A program made the translations under genes and the position numbers. The notes beneath the pieces were generated by a model that was given only the letters and a program-made list of their open reading frames with translations, was not told the DNA's origin and ran no database searches. From positions 1 through 24,667 of IMG/VR virus record IMGVR_UViG_3300021437_000080: DNA of 24,667 nt; one strand, 5' to 3'. Numbering within the stretch: the stretch's first letter is position 1; each line of letters begins with the position of its first letter. This document shows positions 2,348 through 17,284 of the stretch, one piece after another. This stretch comes from a virus.

Positions 2348-2608
2348 CTAATGTTTCCCCAGGACGGTATTTCTAGAGCTTGGTACCCTTACCCTGCTCT
2401 TATCAGTAGCCGCCTCGTACTGAACTCTTTTCCATATGAACCGCTCGCTCAAGACCACACGGGCTTGCCTGGTAAAAGGCGTCGCTGGTCTTATGCCTCT
2501 CGGTTCAGCAACCACTATACTGCGACCAACTATTCTAAATAATGGTCGTCGTTCGTCTCCTCCATACAACCCCACTGCCACCATAACCACCCCTAATAGT
2601 GCTTTCAT
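2348..2608 (-). CDS. Small basic protein with signal-like N-terminus, 86 aa
   Basis: The ATG at 2608 overlaps the stop of ERF copy 2 by one base (TGATG), and GGGAG lies 4 bases upstream, so translation is probably coupled to the recombinase. The first 15 residues (MKALLGVVMVAVGLY) are a short hydrophobic segment that could act as a signal or anchor. The rest is strongly basic, with many Arg residues and no recognisable motif. Its position directly after an ERF gene could mean a recombination accessory role. The hydrophobic N-terminus points instead to the envelope, like its downstream neighbours. Confidence 0.6.
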   Translation of the reverse strand: MKALLGVVMVAVGLYGGDERRPLFRIVGRSIVVAEPRGIRPATPFTRQARVVLSERFIWKRVQYEAATDKSRVRVPSSRNTVLGKH

Positions 2609-3174
2609 CAGACTCCCTTGAGCTTATTGATCAATTTTGACGCCATATCAAACGATAATTCTTCTAAGCTAGTTATACGCTCAGCTGCAAATATCTTTTG
2701 TCTAATGTCATCTTTGTTGGCAAGCAATCGATTTAAGAAGTTCACTTGCGGCTCTGTAGCCAGCTGAGGTTTCTGTTCTACTGAATCTGGATCCATACCA
2801 TCACCTTTGCCTAATCCCAGCATGCCATAGGCTTCGTATCTGCGTTGATAGGTAGTAGCTGATCCGTATGCCTGGTCTATTGAGCGTACGTTTTCTGGTA
2901 TGAGTAATGGTACTAATGCCGTGATCCATTGCCCTGAAGCGTGCATGATCTTGCTTTCCAACATGATCTGACCATTGAATATGGTTCTGTGCTGCATAAA
3001 GACGAGGCCATGATCCAGCAGGGCGTCTTCGGTGGCTTCTTTGATGGCGTCTGACGAGGCGTATTCTCCATAGTTACCTCGTACGTCTGCCTTGAGGGGT
3101 TTGAACTTCTTCTTTGCTTGCACAAGAGCTGCTACAAGCTCATTGATCTGCTCTGAGTGGAATCTATTTTCCAT
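2608..3174 (-). CDS. ERF-family single-strand annealing recombinase (copy 2), 188 aa
   Basis: The product matches ERF-superfamily annealing proteins. It has an N-terminal helix with 'LVAALVQAKKKFKPL' (13-27), 'YASSDAIKEATEDAL' (38-52), 'DHGLVFMQ' (54-61), and the signature 'QAYGSATTYQRRYEAYGMLGL' region (101-121) followed by an acidic patch. A C-terminal helical domain (about 136-185, starting LATEPQVNFLNRL) resembles tails found on other phage recombination proteins. Such proteins form rings that anneal single strands. The gene overlaps its upstream neighbour (3164-3421) by 11 bases and its downstream one by 1 base, so it is in an operon. The ribosome site before it is weak (GAAGAGA), consistent with coupling. 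It is a paralogue of the edge gene at 1-611. Confidence 0.88.
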   Translation of the reverse strand: MENRFHSEQINELVAALVQAKKKFKPLKADVRGNYGEYASSDAIKEATEDALLDHGLVFMQHRTIFNGQIMLESKIMHASGQWITALVPLLIPENVRSIDQAYGSATTYQRRYEAYGMLGLGKGDGMDPDSVEQKPQLATEPQVNFLNRLLANKDDIRQKIFAAERITSLEELSFDMASKLINKLKGV

Positions 3175-4094: not shown

Positions 4095-5413
4095 TGATAT
4101 CTAAAATATACCCTGAGAATTCTATAAGTCAAGAACTAAGCAAAGAATTAATATCGGATCCTAGAGGGTTCTTGTCAACTCGCTTGTCCCATTTGGAATT
4201 TCGCGTCTTCGAATATCTCTTTGGGTTGATCCAGGCGTACAAATACAACACCTATGTCTCGCAAGACACGGTAGCAAAGAAGCTCGGCTGCTCTCGTAAG
4301 TCCGTTAATGAAGCCATTGGACATCTACGTAAGCTGGGTCTTATCTCTACAACGTTCCGCTTCAATCAGACATGTTTGTACTATCTAAACACTTTCTTTA
4401 ATACAAAAGTAGCTCGCAAGAACTTGTCAGTATTTCTCAAATACTATGTTTCTTTGAGCCTCTCAATGTTGGTTTTTAAACCTGGGGTTACACAAGTTAA
4501 TATTAAGGAAGAGTTTATTATAAATTCGTATCCATGTTCGTTGTCTACTACCAGAGAGAGTTACAACTACGCGTATGCGCGCGCGAGGGGAACACGACAC
4601 GACGAACACGAAGTTGGACAAAAAGAGATACAAGAGGCGAGAGAAATCTTTCAATACGAAAACCGACGACGAAAAGGGAAGAAGATGGTAGATGAAGCAA
4701 AGAAATCCTTCCAGGATGAGTCTACGTACCCAGAGATACGCAAGTTGCAGGACACGTTACCGCTAACAACGCATGGCTTCGTTACACTTGCTGCATTCCC
4801 AGAGGGTGCAATTATCAAAGCGCAGAAGCACATCAAGCAGATCATCACTGCAAAGAAGCCGTTCTCGTATCTCATTTCCATGTGCAAAGCGTACTGCACG
4901 GAGAACAGCATCCCGGTGAACTGGCGCAAATATTATCTGCTCAAAGAGGCTCTCGCCGTTGGTGATAACGATCCCGTTGTTGATGAGCGCAAGATGAAGG
5001 CTCTGCAAGAGTTGGTGGAGAAAACCGACACATCGACTAAAAATAAAGAACCACAAAAACGGGAAGTCACAGACGCTGATTACCACAGTGCAGCCATCTA
5101 TAAAGATCCAAAGTATATCAACCTAACGCAGCCCCGTAAGCAAGAGACAGACTTTGAATGGGCAGAGAACGTAGAACGCTTAATCCACCAAAAGCTCAAG
5201 GCAGATCCAGAAGCGTTTGGCATGTTCAAGATACCGTACAACCCAAAGTTGGCATTGCTCGAAAGACCAGAGCGCATCAAAATACTCAAAGAACAACACC
5301 CAGACTGTACATGCCGCGATGAATGGAAACAAGAACTCGATATTCCCCTTTCTGGACCAGTCAAACAACAGCCCCTCTTTGACATGAGCTCATTGTTCAA
5401 AATGCCCTTGTGA
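4094..5413 (+). CDS. Replication-initiator-like protein with N-terminal winged helix, 439 aa
   Basis: Residues about 35-90 form a winged-helix domain, with the HTH section 'VSQDTVAKKLGCSRKSVNEA' followed by a helix ending 'LRKLGLIS'. This is typical of phage O-type and plasmid Rep initiators. A low-complexity Arg/Glu/His-rich linker (about 155-200) separates it from a C-terminal half with 'KAQKHIKQIITAKKPFSYLI' and a late Cys pair (CTC, near 407). Position supports a DNA replication role: after the HTH regulator and directly before a RusA-type resolvase. Unlike almost all neighbours it has no Shine-Dalgarno; a tandem AT-rich repeat abuts the ATG. The next in-frame ATG is far inside the folded region, so this start is the only sensible one. 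The replication role is inferred from architecture and context. Confidence 0.65.
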   Translation: MISKIYPENSISQELSKELISDPRGFLSTRLSHLEFRVFEYLFGLIQAYKYNTYVSQDTVAKKLGCSRKSVNEAIGHLRKLGLISTTFRFNQTCLYYLNTFFNTKVARKNLSVFLKYYVSLSLSMLVFKPGVTQVNIKEEFIINSYPCSLSTTRESYNYAYARARGTRHDEHEVGQKEIQEAREIFQYENRRRKGKKMVDEAKKSFQDESTYPEIRKLQDTLPLTTHGFVTLAAFPEGAIIKAQKHIKQIITAKKPFSYLISMCKAYCTENSIPVNWRKYYLLKEALAVGDNDPVVDERKMKALQELVEKTDTSTKNKEPQKREVTDADYHSAAIYKDPKYINLTQPRKQETDFEWAENVERLIHQKLKADPEAFGMFKIPYNPKLALLERPERIKILKEQHPDCTCRDEWKQELDIPLSGPVKQQPLFDMSSLFKMPL

Positions 5414-13025: not shown

Positions 13026-13831
13026 TGAGTTTTGAGCTAAAATATGATGCCAATGGTGAAGTAATTCAATCAGCAGAACCGGCTGAAAACACCGCACCCG
13101 CAACACAAGAACAGCCTGTGTCCAATTCTGACAACGCGCTTGCAGATTTGGCTGCTCCAGAAGAGGCTGCACCACAAGCTCCTGTTGAAGAACCAAAAAG
13201 AAAACCAACTCCCCAAGAGTCATGGAAAATTGTCCGTGAGCGAGCAGAAGCGGCTGAGCGCAGAGCGGAAGAAGCTGAACGCCTCCTCCAACAGTACACA
13301 CGCACCGCCAACCAATCAGCACCAGAAAGCAATGAAGATCTAGATCTTTCCGTTGATGAAGATTCACTCGTTGAAGGCAAACACCTCTCTAAAGTCGCTA
13401 AAAAAATAAAACATCTTGAGCAACAGCTGCGCTCATACGAACAACAATCGGTTGTGGCATCGACTGAGCTCAAGCTTAAGGCGCAATACCCGGACTTTGA
13501 TAACATCGTTTCTGGTGAGAATTTGGCAAATCTGCGTGCGGCTTATCCGGAGATAGCTGCGACCATTAATTCGTCTAATGATCTGTATAGTAAAGCGGTG
13601 ACAGCGTACACCATGATTAAGAGACTGGGCATCGCCGATGTGCCAGGATATGAAGAATCAAAAGAAGTTGCGCGGCGTAATGCGTCTAAACCAAAGCCAT
13701 TGGCCAGCATCTCGCCACAGCAAGGTGATAGCCCGTTGTCAAAAGCGAATGCATTTGCTAATGGTAAGATGAGCGATGATTTGCAAAAGCAACTTTGGAA
13801 AGAGATGAATGATGCTCGCAAGAGTTATTAA
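13025..13831 (+). CDS. Probable capsid scaffolding protein, 268 aa
   Basis: The protein has the usual makeup of a scaffold. It has an acidic, Pro/Ala/Glu-rich disordered N-terminus (about 1-60), then a coiled coil ('ESWKIVRERAEAAERRAEEA', 65-84, continuing to about 92), a second helix pair (about 122-145), and a polar C-terminus with a basic helix near 'LQKQLWKEMNDARKSY'. It contains no cysteine. Scaffolds guide coat protein into proheads and leave before packaging. It lies after the portal and before the coat gene, which is the standard place, although two lysis-type genes intervene. Identity rests on composition and position, not on sequence homology. Confidence 0.7.
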   Translation: MSFELKYDANGEVIQSAEPAENTAPATQEQPVSNSDNALADLAAPEEAAPQAPVEEPKRKPTPQESWKIVRERAEAAERRAEEAERLLQQYTRTANQSAPESNEDLDLSVDEDSLVEGKHLSKVAKKIKHLEQQLRSYEQQSVVASTELKLKAQYPDFDNIVSGENLANLRAAYPEIAATINSSNDLYSKAVTAYTMIKRLGIADVPGYEESKEVARRNASKPKPLASISPQQGDSPLSKANAFANGKMSDDLQKQLWKEMNDARKSY

Positions 13832-13840
13832 GGAGCGGTT

Positions 13841-14182
13841 ATGCAAGCTTGGGAGAAGCAGTCGTTATTTGCGCTTAATGTCGCGGCGCTACTTAAGCAC
13901 ATTAATGAGAGCGGGATGTTGGTCACGCTTGGCGAAGCGTACAGGACTCCAGAGCAAGCCGAAATCTACGCCAAAGAAGGAAAAGGAATCGTAGACTCGC
14001 TCCATTGCAAGCGGTTAGCCATCGATATCAATCTTCTTGATAAGTGTGGCACGTACATCACTGACGTAAAAGAATATGAACCATTCGGTGTCTTTTGGGA
14101 AAGTCTGCACAAGTTTAATAGATGGGGTGGGCGTTTTAAGACACGCGTTGATGCGGATCATTTTGAGACGCAAGACCTTTAG
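13841..14182 (+). CDS. M15-type peptidase, probable endolysin, 113 aa
   Basis: AAGGAG lies 6 bases before ATG 13841. The product fits the short M15/VanY-like zinc peptidases that cut peptide cross-links in peptidoglycan (as in T5-type L-alanyl-D-glutamate endopeptidases). It has 'GEAYRTPEQAEIYAKEGKGI' (31-50), then 'SLHCKRLAIDINL' (53-65) with zinc ligands H55 and D62. It ends with 'RWGGRFKTRVDADHFET' (94-110), where D104 and H107 complete the site. There is no signal peptide, so release needs a holin or equivalent. It sits between scaffold and coat genes, followed by a small membrane protein. Confidence 0.85.
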   Translation: MQAWEKQSLFALNVAALLKHINESGMLVTLGEAYRTPEQAEIYAKEGKGIVDSLHCKRLAIDINLLDKCGTYITDVKEYEPFGVFWESLHKFNRWGGRFKTRVDADHFETQDL

Positions 14183-14199
14183 CTTCGGCTTCATTCTCG

Positions 14200-14245
14200 G
14201 CGGATCGTGGTTTTGCTTTTCCTTTTTGCATGTACCACGATCCGC
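14200..14245. repeat. Strong perfect hairpin without T-run, after endolysin
   Basis: GCGGATCGTGGT (14200-14211) and ACCACGATCCGC (14234-14245) form a perfect 12-bp stem with a pyrimidine-rich 22-base loop. No T-run follows on either strand. The rest of 14183-14320 carries no supported gene apart from the ribosome site of the next one. Confidence 0.7.
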
Positions 14246-14320
14246 GGAGTTACTCGTCTTGAGATTTTTCTTTTTCTATGTAATCGTATTCGTATAAACC
14301 TGTCTCTAAGGGAGGGATAT

Positions 14321-14578
14321 ATGAAGACGTTATACGCTTTATTAACCATTCTTACCCTTATCTTCCCTTACCCCATTACCGCCACTAATAGCCTTAAACT
14401 AACGCATAAAGAACAGCAAGAGCTCCTCATGCAAGAAGAGCGTGATAAAACGCGCATCAAGTTAGCCACCATCGGCGCAGTCGTTGTGTTAGGGAGCATT
14501 ATCGCTCTCAAGCAGAACGGACAACTCCCAGACATTGGGAAAATTGTTGCTTACCTTACTGGTAGTTTAGGCAAGTGA
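14321..14578 (+). CDS. Small membrane protein, candidate holin or spanin, 85 aa
   Basis: I chose ATG 14321, with GGGAGGGA 4 bases upstream. A longer frame from 14207 begins inside the hairpin loop and has no ribosome site. An N-terminal signal or membrane helix (MKTLYALLTILTLIFPYPI) is followed by a charged helical stretch ('LTHKEQQELLMQEERDKTRI'). A second hydrophobic helix (LATIGAVVVLGSIIAL) and a short polar tail come next. Two membrane segments and the position right after an endolysin fit a class II holin. A cleaved signal would instead fit a spanin-like protein. The sequence alone does not decide. Confidence 0.65.
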   Translation: MKTLYALLTILTLIFPYPITATNSLKLTHKEQQELLMQEERDKTRIKLATIGAVVVLGSIIALKQNGQLPDIGKIVAYLTGSLGK

Positions 14579-14585
14579 GAGGGAG

Positions 14586-14613
14586 TTGCCTTTTATAAAG
14601 TCATTGTTATGAT
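14586..14613 (+). promoter_or_regulatory. Promoter of the major capsid gene
   Basis: TTGCCT (14586-14591) and TATGAT (14608-14613) are 16 bases apart. The predicted start near 14620 would put the hairpin 14618-14646 at the very 5' end of the capsid mRNA. Confidence 0.55.
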
Positions 14614-14617
14614 TTGC

Positions 14618-14646
14618 AGGGAGCGCAATCTGAAGCTTCGCTCCCT
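14618..14646. repeat. Hairpin at the 5' end of the capsid leader
   Basis: AGGGAGCG (14618-14625) and CGCTCCCT (14639-14646) form a perfect 8-bp stem with a 13-base loop. A stem at the 5' end commonly protects an mRNA; it has no T-run and would not terminate. Confidence 0.65.
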
Positions 14647-14657
14647 TCAGTCTATCC

Positions 14658-14738
14658 GGACGCAAAGAGAGTTTCGTCCACTCCATTGACGAAAAAACGA
14701 GCCTCGTCAGCTTAAGAAACCGTATATTCTTTTAAGGA
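14658..14738 (+). promoter_or_regulatory. Structured leader of the capsid gene with alternative hairpins
   Basis: Segment 1 GGACGCAAA (14658-14666) pairs with segment 2 TTTCGTCC (14672-14679) with one bulge. Segment 2 also pairs perfectly (TTTCGTC) with segment 3 GACGAAA (14688-14694), and segment 3 (TGACGA, 14687-14692) pairs with segment 4 TCGTCA (14704-14709). So 1:2 plus 3:4 excludes 2:3. A further pair, CTTAA (14711-14715) with TTAAG (14732-14736), covers part of the AAGGA ribosome site (14734-14738). Pairings are visible in the sequence; a switching role is inference. Confidence 0.45.
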
Positions 14739-14744
14739 CACACT

Positions 14745-15692
14745 ATGCCTATAACAACGACTAGTGTTTTGCCTGCTCCGGTTCAACAAAGCTTCAGCTA
14801 CAAGTTACTTTCCGTACCAGTGCCAAACATGATTCACAAGATCCCTGCGATGAAGAAGAATATGCCTCGTAACGGTGGTACAACCCTTCGTATGCGTAGG
14901 TATAACCCCCTCAACACCGCAATGGTACCACTAGGAAATTCCGGTATCACTCCCCCTGCGCAAGCATTAACAGCTATTGATATCGATGCCACGATCTCGT
15001 TTTACGGAACCTACGTTCAGCTTAACGAGCAAGTGACCTTGCAAAACCAAGATCCAGTCCTCAATGAGTGTGCTGCTCGTCTTGGTGTTTCATTACGTCA
15101 AACAGAAGACCAGCTTACTCGTGACATGCTTGCAGCTACGGCTGGATTCATTAACTGTGTTGGTGGTGTGAACGGTGATAACCCAACAGAAATCACCCGT
15201 ACAGACGTTGATACCGTTGTCAGAACACTCTTGAACAACAATGCATACACCATCATGGATAACATTGAGGGTGAAGATAAGTTCGGTACAGCTCCAGTTC
15301 GTGATGCTTACTTTGCACTCTGCTCTACGCAATTGACTGGTAATCTTGATGCTGTTGCTGGATTCATCCAAAAGAACCAGTACCCATCTCCTATGAATGC
15401 TCTGCGTTCAGAATGGGGTGCTATTGGTAACCTTCGCTTCTTGGTTTCATCAATTGGTAGCTTCTTCCCAAATGCTTCGGCAAATGGCAACAACGTCTTC
15501 AATATCTTCTGTACTGGTATGGAAGCATATGCTTGCATTGAACAAGATGGCTACTCTGCAAGCTTCATTTACAGACCACCAATATACGATGGTCCACTAG
15601 CGTTGAACGCTTCGGTTGGTTACAAGTTTGCTGAGGTGCCTCGCATCACTAACGACTTGTGGGTAATCAACTTACGCGCAACATTAGCTTAA
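14745..15692 (+). CDS. Major capsid protein, N4-gp56-like, 315 aa
   Basis: The pattern fits the N4-gp56 family of HK97-fold coat proteins. It has an Arg-rich N-arm region ('NGGTTLRMRRYNPL', 43-56), then 'ATISFYGTYVQLNEQVTLQN' (82-101), 'DPVLNECAARLGVSLRQTED' (103-122) and 'LTRDMLAATAGF'. A domain that reads like the P-loop region follows, and it ends with a strand-rich C-terminus ('GYKFAEVPRITNDLWVINLR'). Length is normal for the family. The gene has its own promoter and structured leader, consistent with high expression. AAGGA is 6 bases before the ATG. The capsid is assembled on the scaffold encoded upstream. Confidence 0.9.
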   Translation: MPITTTSVLPAPVQQSFSYKLLSVPVPNMIHKIPAMKKNMPRNGGTTLRMRRYNPLNTAMVPLGNSGITPPAQALTAIDIDATISFYGTYVQLNEQVTLQNQDPVLNECAARLGVSLRQTEDQLTRDMLAATAGFINCVGGVNGDNPTEITRTDVDTVVRTLLNNNAYTIMDNIEGEDKFGTAPVRDAYFALCSTQLTGNLDAVAGFIQKNQYPSPMNALRSEWGAIGNLRFLVSSIGSFFPNASANGNNVFNIFCTGMEAYACIEQDGYSASFIYRPPIYDGPLALNASVGYKFAEVPRITNDLWVINLRATLA

Positions 15693-15701
15693 GGAGGTAA
15701 C

Positions 15702-16787
15702 ATGGACGGAACTATATTATCACAAGGTACGTTTACGGTTGGTGCTAACGTTGTACCGGTTAATATCCCAGTCCCATCAGGTGTTGATTGGGTGTCGGTT
15801 ATTAACTTAACCAACGTGGTACAAGCCGGTGGCGCTAACGCAGCTGGAATTAGATATTTCTGGCAGCTTGGTATGGCTAATGGCAGTGCTATTGTTGAAT
15901 ATTATGCCAACGGTGGTGCAGTTGTTACAGGCGATTACATCGTCCCAGGCGGTATCTCGTTGTATGATCCATCAGGACAGAATCCATTATCGCCAGCATT
16001 GAGTGCTCCACGTGCTACAACAGCAATGACCAACGCTACGCGCCCAGTTGTTAGCGCAGCTAATACAACCGGCTTGGTGGTTGGTAGTGTTGTACGTATG
16101 ACACTGACGGCTCAAGATGAAGTTGATAGCGTTGATATGGTTGTTGGTGCGGTTAACCCAGGCGTAAGCTTTACCCTGTTAACTGCTTCTAACGCAATGG
16201 CTAACGCTCAAGGCGCTATTGGTGGAGCCGGCTTCTATCAGATCGTTAACTATCCACCGTTGTTCTATCCACGTCGCTTGGTGATTACCAATATCACCCA
16301 GGCAGCGCTAGCGGTAGTAGCTACTTCAGTTGCGCATGGATTGACGGTTGGACAGCAAATACGCTTTACCATCCCTGCAACGAGCGGCATGGTACAGCTT
16401 AATGGCCAACAAGCAACCATTACTGCCATTATCGATGATTACACCTTCAACATAAACATTGATACAACAGCGTTTACAGCATTTACATTCCCAACTATTG
16501 CTCAGTTCCCTGCTACGTATCCTGTATTGGTTCCATTTGGTATGAATACAGGTGCAGCGCTGACGCTTGGTGGGCTGCAAGTGCCAACCATCGGTGGTGT
16601 TCAGATCTACGGAACGCAATCGGGTATCTTGGCTGATTCAACCGTTAATACCGGATTCTTGGGCATGACCCTTGGAACGGGTAGCGACGGCGCAATCAAT
16701 GGAGCTGCCATAAGCGGACCAGCTGGAACTAACCCCGGAGACTTTATCCTCTGGCGCGTTGGTAAATCATCCTTCGGCGGACAATAA
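15702..16787 (+). CDS. Structural protein with two small beta-rich FCCH-like modules, 361 aa
   Basis: GGAGG lies 4 bases before ATG 15702, nine bases after the coat gene. The protein is Gly/Ala/Thr/Val-rich with almost no charge, typical of a virion surface protein. Residues about 194-262 ('VITNITQAALAVVATSVAHG' then 'GMVQLNGQQATITAIIDDYT') resemble the small beta module called E1-FCCH-like in phage proteins. Residues about 114-160 look like a weaker first copy. The module recurs in the protein at 17314-17679. It could be a capsid decoration or head-completion protein; which one is not decided. Confidence 0.7.
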   Translation: MDGTILSQGTFTVGANVVPVNIPVPSGVDWVSVINLTNVVQAGGANAAGIRYFWQLGMANGSAIVEYYANGGAVVTGDYIVPGGISLYDPSGQNPLSPALSAPRATTAMTNATRPVVSAANTTGLVVGSVVRMTLTAQDEVDSVDMVVGAVNPGVSFTLLTASNAMANAQGAIGGAGFYQIVNYPPLFYPRRLVITNITQAALAVVATSVAHGLTVGQQIRFTIPATSGMVQLNGQQATITAIIDDYTFNINIDTTAFTAFTFPTIAQFPATYPVLVPFGMNTGAALTLGGLQVPTIGGVQIYGTQSGILADSTVNTGFLGMTLGTGSDGAINGAAISGPAGTNPGDFILWRVGKSSFGGQ

Positions 16788-16798
16788 GCATCTTAGCG

Positions 16799-16812
16799 TT
16801 AATGTACATTAA
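16799..16812. repeat. Perfect 14-bp palindrome next to a hairpin
   Basis: TTAATGTACATTAA is its own reverse complement. It directly abuts the hairpin at 16813-16832. It may be a protein-binding site or part of the same transcript structure. Confidence 0.5.
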
Positions 16813-16832
16813 GGGAGGGCGACGGCCCTCCC
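16813..16832. repeat. GC-rich hairpin between structural genes
   Basis: GGGAGGGC (16813-16820) and GCCCTCCC (16825-16832) form a perfect 8-bp stem with loop GACG. No T-run follows (GTTATAGC), so it may weaken read-through or mark an RNA processing site rather than end the transcript. Confidence 0.65.
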
Positions 16833-16855
16833 GTTATAGCGAAAGGTAGAGACGT

Positions 16856-17284
16856 ATGGCAATAAATAGTGGATTGGTTTCAACAAGCACCCCTACAAAA
16901 GTTCATGCATCTAAAAAGACTGCCAAAGAACTTCAATATATGAGAGATCGTGACCGAGAAATGGTACGCGGTATCTTTCGTTTCTTTGAAGTACCTGGTG
17001 GTACCATGGCATTCTCGTTTAGGAAATACAAGCAAGATGAAGTTGAGACGTACTCGTTTACTGACGGCGAGATTTATACTATTCCTCGTGGCGTTGCTCA
17101 TCATCTTTCGAATAACTGCTGGTATCCAGAACACAAGTACAAGATGGATGAAGGTGGCAAATCAACCGTGATGATCAGCAAGAAAGTGCGGCGTTGCACC
17201 TTTGAGCCGTTGGACTTTATGGACGTATCAGAGTTGCGTGAATTAACGCCAACCGATATAGAAACAGTAACAAGCGTGAAATAG
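16856..17284 (+). CDS. Small phage structural-region protein, 142 aa
   Basis: GAAAGG lies about 11 bases before ATG 16856, a weak ribosome site. The centre reads 'MVRGIFRFFEVPGGTMAFSF' (36-55), 'VETYSFTDGEIYTIPRGVAH' (62-81), 'CWYPEHKY', and ends with 'KVRRCTFEPLDFMDV'. This looks like a single beta-sandwich domain. I recall related sequences, with the 'DGE.Y..P.GVA.HL....WYP.H' pattern, among structural-module genes of other podoviruses, with no known function. That recollection is unverified. It sits between the decoration-like proteins. Confidence 0.65.
   Translation: MAINSGLVSTSTPTKVHASKKTAKELQYMRDRDREMVRGIFRFFEVPGGTMAFSFRKYKQDEVETYSFTDGEIYTIPRGVAHHLSNNCWYPEHKYKMDEGGKSTVMISKKVRRCTFEPLDFMDVSELRELTPTDIETVTSVK

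Follow-up and report, generated by a model that had tools for sequence, protein, structure and literature searches.

A conserved array of predicted tandem pseudoknots in the capsid gene leader of uncultured tailed viruses

Introduction

The MS2-type coat operator, which belongs to an RNA phage, is a single bulged hairpin located at the start codon. The put elements are hairpins that display a conserved sequence. The 5' structures that stabilise bacterial messages are usually plain hairpins and, in model mRNAs, one 5' hairpin is enough for protection. Secondary structure at the 5' end makes an mRNA more stable, since RppH and RNase E depend on 5' ends that are single-stranded; 5' roadblocks likewise confer stability towards RNase J1 (PMC3997798). 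Furthermore, bacterial RNase J1 is halted in vitro by a pseudoknotted RNA of viral origin (PMC5760640). The leader pseudoknot of gene 32 from T4 and RB69 is an autogenous translational operator (PMC3014915; PMC535899).

In the viruses examined here, a structured element made of tandem units almost certainly lies upstream of the gene encoding the major capsid protein (MCP). This work addresses its anatomy, its conservation and its location, and weighs the roles that it may play in the expression of the capsid gene.

The capsid gene and its leader in the window

The window, i.e. the whole stretch of DNA analysed (24,667 bases), corresponds to one virus record of IMG/VR. It encodes a terminase (phrog_2, phrog_2472), a P22-type portal (Pfam P22_portal, E=2e-73) and, at 14745..15692 on the + strand, the MCP (PHROG 1357 major head protein, E=1.2e-32; Pfam Phage_capsid_4, E=3.9e-6), whose gene is followed ~10 bases further by the next ORF. 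Two ORFs of the - strand, 3-611 and 2608-3174, carry motifs that are alike by eye (LVFIQ...SGQEI and LVFMQ...SGQWI) and possibly encode two ERF-type recombination proteins. For host assignment, only four genome-bin contigs were found, and they contradict one another.

The element is contained in the 166 bases that separate the end of a small ORF (14321-14578) from the capsid ATG (14745). Upstream of this small ORF, a strong 16-nt inverted repeat (14196-14249; 94% complementary, 22-nt T-rich loop) separates it from an endolysin-like ORF. All features of the leader lie on the + strand. A sigma-70-type promoter-like site (14586..14613; TTGCCT-16-TATGAT) gives a predicted +1 at ~14620 and precedes three predicted pseudoknot units, each made of two stems, S1 and S2. 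Unit 1 (14620..14650) would combine S1 14620-14625/14639-14644 (GGAGCG/CGCTCC) and S2 14630-14635/14645-14650 (CTGAAG/CTTCAG), both of which covary in relatives. Unit 2 (14658..14683) would combine S1 14658-14662/14675-14679 (GGACG/CGTCC) and S2 14669-14672/14680-14683 (GAGT/ACTC). Unit 3 (14687..14713), the weakest, would combine S1 14687-14691/14705-14709 (TGACG/CGTCA) and S2 14700-14702/14710-14712 (AGC/GCT), which a G-U pair can extend to 14699/14713. The S1 stems of units 2 and 3 are the two hairpins (segments 1:2 and 3:4) already reported in a preliminary description of this leader; the second helix of every unit, between the loop and the bases 3' of S1, was absent from it. Further downstream, AAGGA (14734..14738) is, as read from the sequence, the ribosome binding site of the capsid gene; an SD-like motif is found in 131 of the 134 leaders collected from relatives.

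Anatomy of the units

The assignment of each leader unit to the H-type pseudoknots, with the order S1-L1-S2-L2-S1'-L3-S2', is well supported: the loop of the S1 hairpin would pair outside itself, with the bases located just 3' of S1, and compensatory changes are found in both helices. S1 includes about 4-6 bp, usually 4-5, the inner two pairs being C-G and G-C, and sometimes harbours a one-base bulge. L1 (mostly 3-5 nt) starts with UA or CAA, S2 includes 3-6 bp, L2 (2-3 nt) usually has U as its last base, and L3 (0-2 nt) separates the 3' arm of S1 from the 3' arm of S2. The tandem copy number ranges from 2 to 8 units, with three in the window. Neighbouring units are often separated by 0-2 nt (108 of ~250 gaps), and the distance between the last unit and the ATG has a median of 43 nt (5-95% range 29-87).

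The base preferences of the core are also found by a search devoid of any motif bonus. Indeed, CG/CG inner pairs occur in 51 of 95 units and lie outside the top four in shuffles, A occupies position 2 of L1 in 57% vs 33%, and U ends L2 in 67% vs 32%.

The constant spacing of the stems suggests that S1 and S2 coexist in one molecule. As L3 is tight (only ~0-2 nt), the two stems may compete instead of coexisting, and two competing hairpins per unit would yield identical covariation.

Some variations on this anatomy were observed. The sequence of S1 varies according to the position in the array, with AGCG/CGCT in the first unit (36/78), GGCG/CGCC in the middle ones (52/110) and GACG/CGTC in the last one (40/78). 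In eight leaders (L090, L091, L099, L102-L104, L126 and L224), the L1 of single units holds extra hairpins, S1 and S2 being kept. In L278, a terminator-like hairpin is followed by TATAAT and, 6 nt later, by seven near-identical 24-nt units in direct tandem (4585-4790) and a diverged eighth one; the near identity of the seven units suggests that copy number changes through slippage or recombination.

Conservation of the units in relatives

A scan of IMG/VR with the capsid protein of the window gave 582 relatives, of which the best 80 were used, and scans with four more divergent capsid proteins supplied further relatives (the best 80 for each). Removal of duplicates left 134 distinct leaders, whose MCPs are ~63-100% identical; two of these (L195 and L227) proved not to be genuine leaders and did not enter the statistics. 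By eye, nearly all leaders carry 2-4 repeats of the form GACG-TAtc-GAG-tct-CGTC-ag-CTC.

The window taken alone stays within chance. The folding energy against shuffled sequence, a check proposed in the preliminary description, gives z = -1.34, with 15 of 200 shuffles equally good. Such a single-sequence energy is uninformative here since nested folding cannot display S2. The promoter match of the window is likewise ordinary, promoter-like sites being no commoner than in shuffles (3 vs 5.8).

Significance becomes high once relatives are added. A flexible caller identified 382 units in the 134 leaders vs 25-36 in dinucleotide shuffles and, at a stricter threshold, 307 units vs 9-13. Units were also anchored on their core only (CG-N-A...TCG), neither S2 nor the outer pairs of S1 being used in selection. 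In multi-unit leaders, the outer S1 pairs of these core-anchored units are complementary in 81% of cases with their own 3' arm vs 17.6% when 3' arms are swapped within the leader; for S2 stems reaching 4 bp or more, the corresponding values are 64% and 12.5%. As the swaps take place within one leader, base composition and relatedness of leaders are controlled.

Covariation was then examined in three gapless sets of equal loop length, which include 64, 49 and 35 non-redundant units and in which every column pair was tested. In all three sets, a strong Watson-Crick excess is found essentially only at the column pairs of S1 and S2, among them those of an alternative register of S2; z reaches 6.8 (D=9) and 6.2 (D=10), vs 2.0-2.5 for the best other column pairs. 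In alignment A2, covariation amounts to 0.585, whereas shuffling gives 0.205 (0/500) and sliding no more than 0.155, with 88 cells altered on both sides; these values are somewhat flattering, as A2 omits 8 of the 49 D=10 rows, removed by eye as off the plain register, whereas the test of all column pairs kept all rows. Globally, the same row of predicted units is kept through matched base changes in more than 100 related environmental viruses. The compensatory changes, set beforehand as a check, bear out the earlier proposal of a structured capsid-gene leader.

In the stems, G-U pairs do not outnumber A-C mismatches (17 vs 29 for S2), and neither strand is favoured. Covariation alone therefore can neither establish RNA transcribed from this strand as the molecule that folds nor tell RNA from DNA. 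This lack of G-U excess speaks for a DNA-level feature, such as an operator, a packaging site or a replication site. Such a feature is nevertheless highly improbable, since compensated pairing of variable sequence requires a folded single strand, and since the array keeps one orientation and a placement between promoter and ribosome site, its first unit being in register with +1.

The preliminary description had also proposed an alternative pairing (2:3) that would make the hairpins mutually exclusive, as in an attenuator. In the window, TTTCGTC (14672-14678) does match GACGAAA (14688-14694), but this pairing is not conserved: the 3' arm of S1 pairs over its full length with the 5' arm of the following S1 in 25.4% of 142 adjacent pairs vs 25.8% (sd 3.3%) at random. 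The match is a by-product of the GACG/CGTC arms shared by neighbouring units. Furthermore, the + strand of 13500-17000, and therefore the leader, carries no terminator-like site. On these two grounds, a transcription attenuator with exclusive hairpins was rejected.

Location of the array at the predicted transcription start

Of 124 leaders, 46 have a -10 hexamer (TATAAT-like, at least 5/6) that ends 5-6 nt upstream of the first S1, vs a background of ~1 per position. In the window, TATGAT ends at 14613 and S1 starts at 14620, which leaves a gap of 6 nt. If the usual spacing of sigma-70 promoters applies, +1 is predicted to fall on the first paired base, and the array would begin with the capsid mRNA itself. 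The earlier suggestion that the first hairpin occupies the very 5' end is reinforced by the recurrence of this -10 spacing in relatives; in the window, the hairpin at the predicted +1 is 14620-14644. Some relatives (L278, L012, L036 and L114) also carry a terminator-like hairpin just 5' of the promoter.

An RNA whose start coincides with the predicted transcript start, that is tied to a single promoter and that precedes a gene followed ~10 bases further by the next ORF might act like put, the nascent array contacting RNA polymerase and giving terminator read-through in the structural operon. We consider this very unlikely, as the stem sequences vary freely here, unlike those of put elements.

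The ribosome-site helix

In the window, CTTAA (14711-14715) can pair with TTAAG (14732-14736) to form a helix (14711..14736, + strand) whose 5' arm overlaps the 3' strand of the S2 of unit 3. The partial masking of AAGGA by this helix, noticed previously, does exist in the window, but it is a feature of a subset of leaders only. Indeed, an anti-ribosome-site helix of at least 6 bp is present in 27.6% of 123 leaders vs 5.9% when ribosome sites are exchanged (12.2% at most in 300 exchanges). In this subset, the ribosome site pairs with bases that lie both at the S2 3' arm of the last unit and beyond it, and the 5 bp of the window are among the shorter versions. The helix also occurs in compensated versions: CTTAAG/CTTAAG, CTTGAA/TTCAAG, CTTAGT/ACTAAG, TTTATAG/CTATAAA and CCTTAAC/GTTAAGG.

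Helices of at least 5 bp overlap the S2 of the last unit by at least 2 nt in 31 of the 49 leaders that have them. Because of this shared strand, the helix on the ribosome site competes with the last S2, and folding of the unit would open the site. The array could therefore be a ligand- or state-dependent translational switch, a reading that the overlap and the compensated helices favour. Such a switch is quite unlikely to be the main role, since the helix is missing from most leaders, e.g. from most of the unit-bearing L082-like lineage, and since the other units would be left unexplained.

Restriction to the capsid gene

The unit array is near-exclusive to the MCP leader. In 20 genome records (34-43 kb), the core pattern was found in capsid leaders plus three isolated places. 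In a separate count, the density of units is 9.7 per kb in leaders vs a background of 0.46 per kb per strand elsewhere. A 21-base pattern searched over all viral contigs matched 38 stretches. Among the 37 that were examined, a homologous MCP gene follows in 31; the remaining six look like chance matches, although one of them (L266) fits one complete unit. Seven distant phage regions, cultured or fecal and with MCPs ~25% identical, carry no array of units in the capsid leader; in the three of them that are annotated, the upstream gene ends shortly before the MCP gene.

A comparison with the 4227 families of Rfam gave nothing above the gathering threshold in the window or in 12 relatives, the sole match (E=7, other strand) being meaningless. 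Searches of the literature, in which the coverage of subscription papers was incomplete, found no description of the element.

The capsid gene itself shows another peculiarity. In many relatives (L059, L008, L042, L060 and L068), it is interrupted at ~codon 13, and other split points apparently lie near codons 98, 104-107, 117 and 144 (L243, L257, L264, L265, L271, L272, L275 and L278). L059 (1405-1974, with the MCP start near 2000) has an ORF that is LAGLIDADG-like by eye and a weak match to group I introns (19.7 bits, gathering 50). The MCP gene thus looks like an intron hot spot.

Possible functions of the array

A protective leader best accounts for the predicted placement at +1, the lack of any free 5' end, the serial abutting repeats and the confinement to the capsid gene. 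The preliminary description had raised feedback by coat or scaffold, as well as RNase III processing, as roles that such a leader might have. The main role of the array may therefore be that of a 5'-terminal structured leader that shields the capsid mRNA from 5'-end-dependent decay, a proposal to which we give somewhat less than an even chance. As the nascent mRNA leaves RNA polymerase, its first nucleotides would fold into unit 1, so that no single-stranded 5' end would be free. The later units, often directly abutting, would act as serial further roadblocks. Decay by RppH plus RNase E, or by the 5'-to-3' RNase J, would be slowed, and the capsid message would persist and be translated well at late stages of infection. 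In the subset of leaders that includes the window, the last unit would moreover compete with the ribosome-site helix, so that its folding would favour an open site.

An observation that counts against protection is that the strength of unit 1 barely exceeds that of the other units (mean score 24.9 vs 23.8). Furthermore, as one hairpin is enough in model mRNAs, the presence of several pseudoknots whose loop bases are conserved points to a more specific role, e.g. recognition by a protein. A more mechanical version, in which tandem mini-pseudoknots at +1, variable in number from one relative to another, would be the phage counterpart of exonuclease-resistant RNAs and would physically block both RNase J-type decay and pyrophosphate removal, is unlikely.

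Recognition by a protein would make the array an autogenous operator, whose units would bind the capsid protein, the scaffold or another phage protein, the copies giving avidity, and whose occupancy would repress or time the translation of the capsid gene. Indeed, the conserved core and loop (CG closing pairs, UA at the start of the loop, U before the 3' arm) associated with freely compensated stems resemble a recognised shape, the units are confined to one gene, and the leader pseudoknot of T4 gene 32 provides a precedent (PMC3014915). However, the end of S2 overlaps the ribosome-site helix in a subset only, the distance from the last unit to the ATG varies widely, and none of the ten window proteins searched is a recognised RNA-binding repressor. 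Such an operator is therefore rather doubtful as the main role, although the conserved loop bases, for which a specific fold or a bound protein is the better explanation, limit our confidence in protection of the message.

Whichever role it plays, this compact RNA element, new to Rfam and to the literature searched, is conserved in widespread uncultured tailed viruses and confined to the leader of the message that encodes the most abundant virion protein, a message that the array probably protects or regulates. If 5'-end protection is its role, these phages would use serial pseudoknots as mRNA armour; if it binds the coat protein, it would constitute an RNA feedback system in the capsid operon of a dsDNA phage.

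Comparison with known systems

The array shares with gene 32 of T4 and RB69 an H-type pseudoknot fold, predicted here, located in a phage mRNA leader, 5' of the ribosome site (PMC3014915; PMC535899). The two differ in architecture, since gene 32 encodes a DNA-binding protein and carries a single pseudoknot followed by an unstructured A+U-rich stretch, whereas the present leaders carry 2-8 tandem units from the predicted +1 and precede the gene of a coat protein. Like the predicted units, the xrRNAs of RNA viruses are pseudoknotted and sometimes in tandem, and one of them blocks RNase J1 in vitro (PMC5760640); they are, however, larger ring-like folds located in 3' regions of RNA-virus genomes, and the units match no Rfam family. 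As in MS2-type coat operators, the coat message might be read by its own coat protein, which is proposed only; unlike them, the array is made of predicted tandem units and belongs to dsDNA tailed phages. As a protective leader, it would resemble the 5'-terminal stabilisers of bacteria, in which structure at the 5' end of the mRNA leaves RppH and RNase E without the single-stranded end that they need (PMC3997798), but here this place would be taken by tandem pseudoknots that are conserved by compensation across a virus family.
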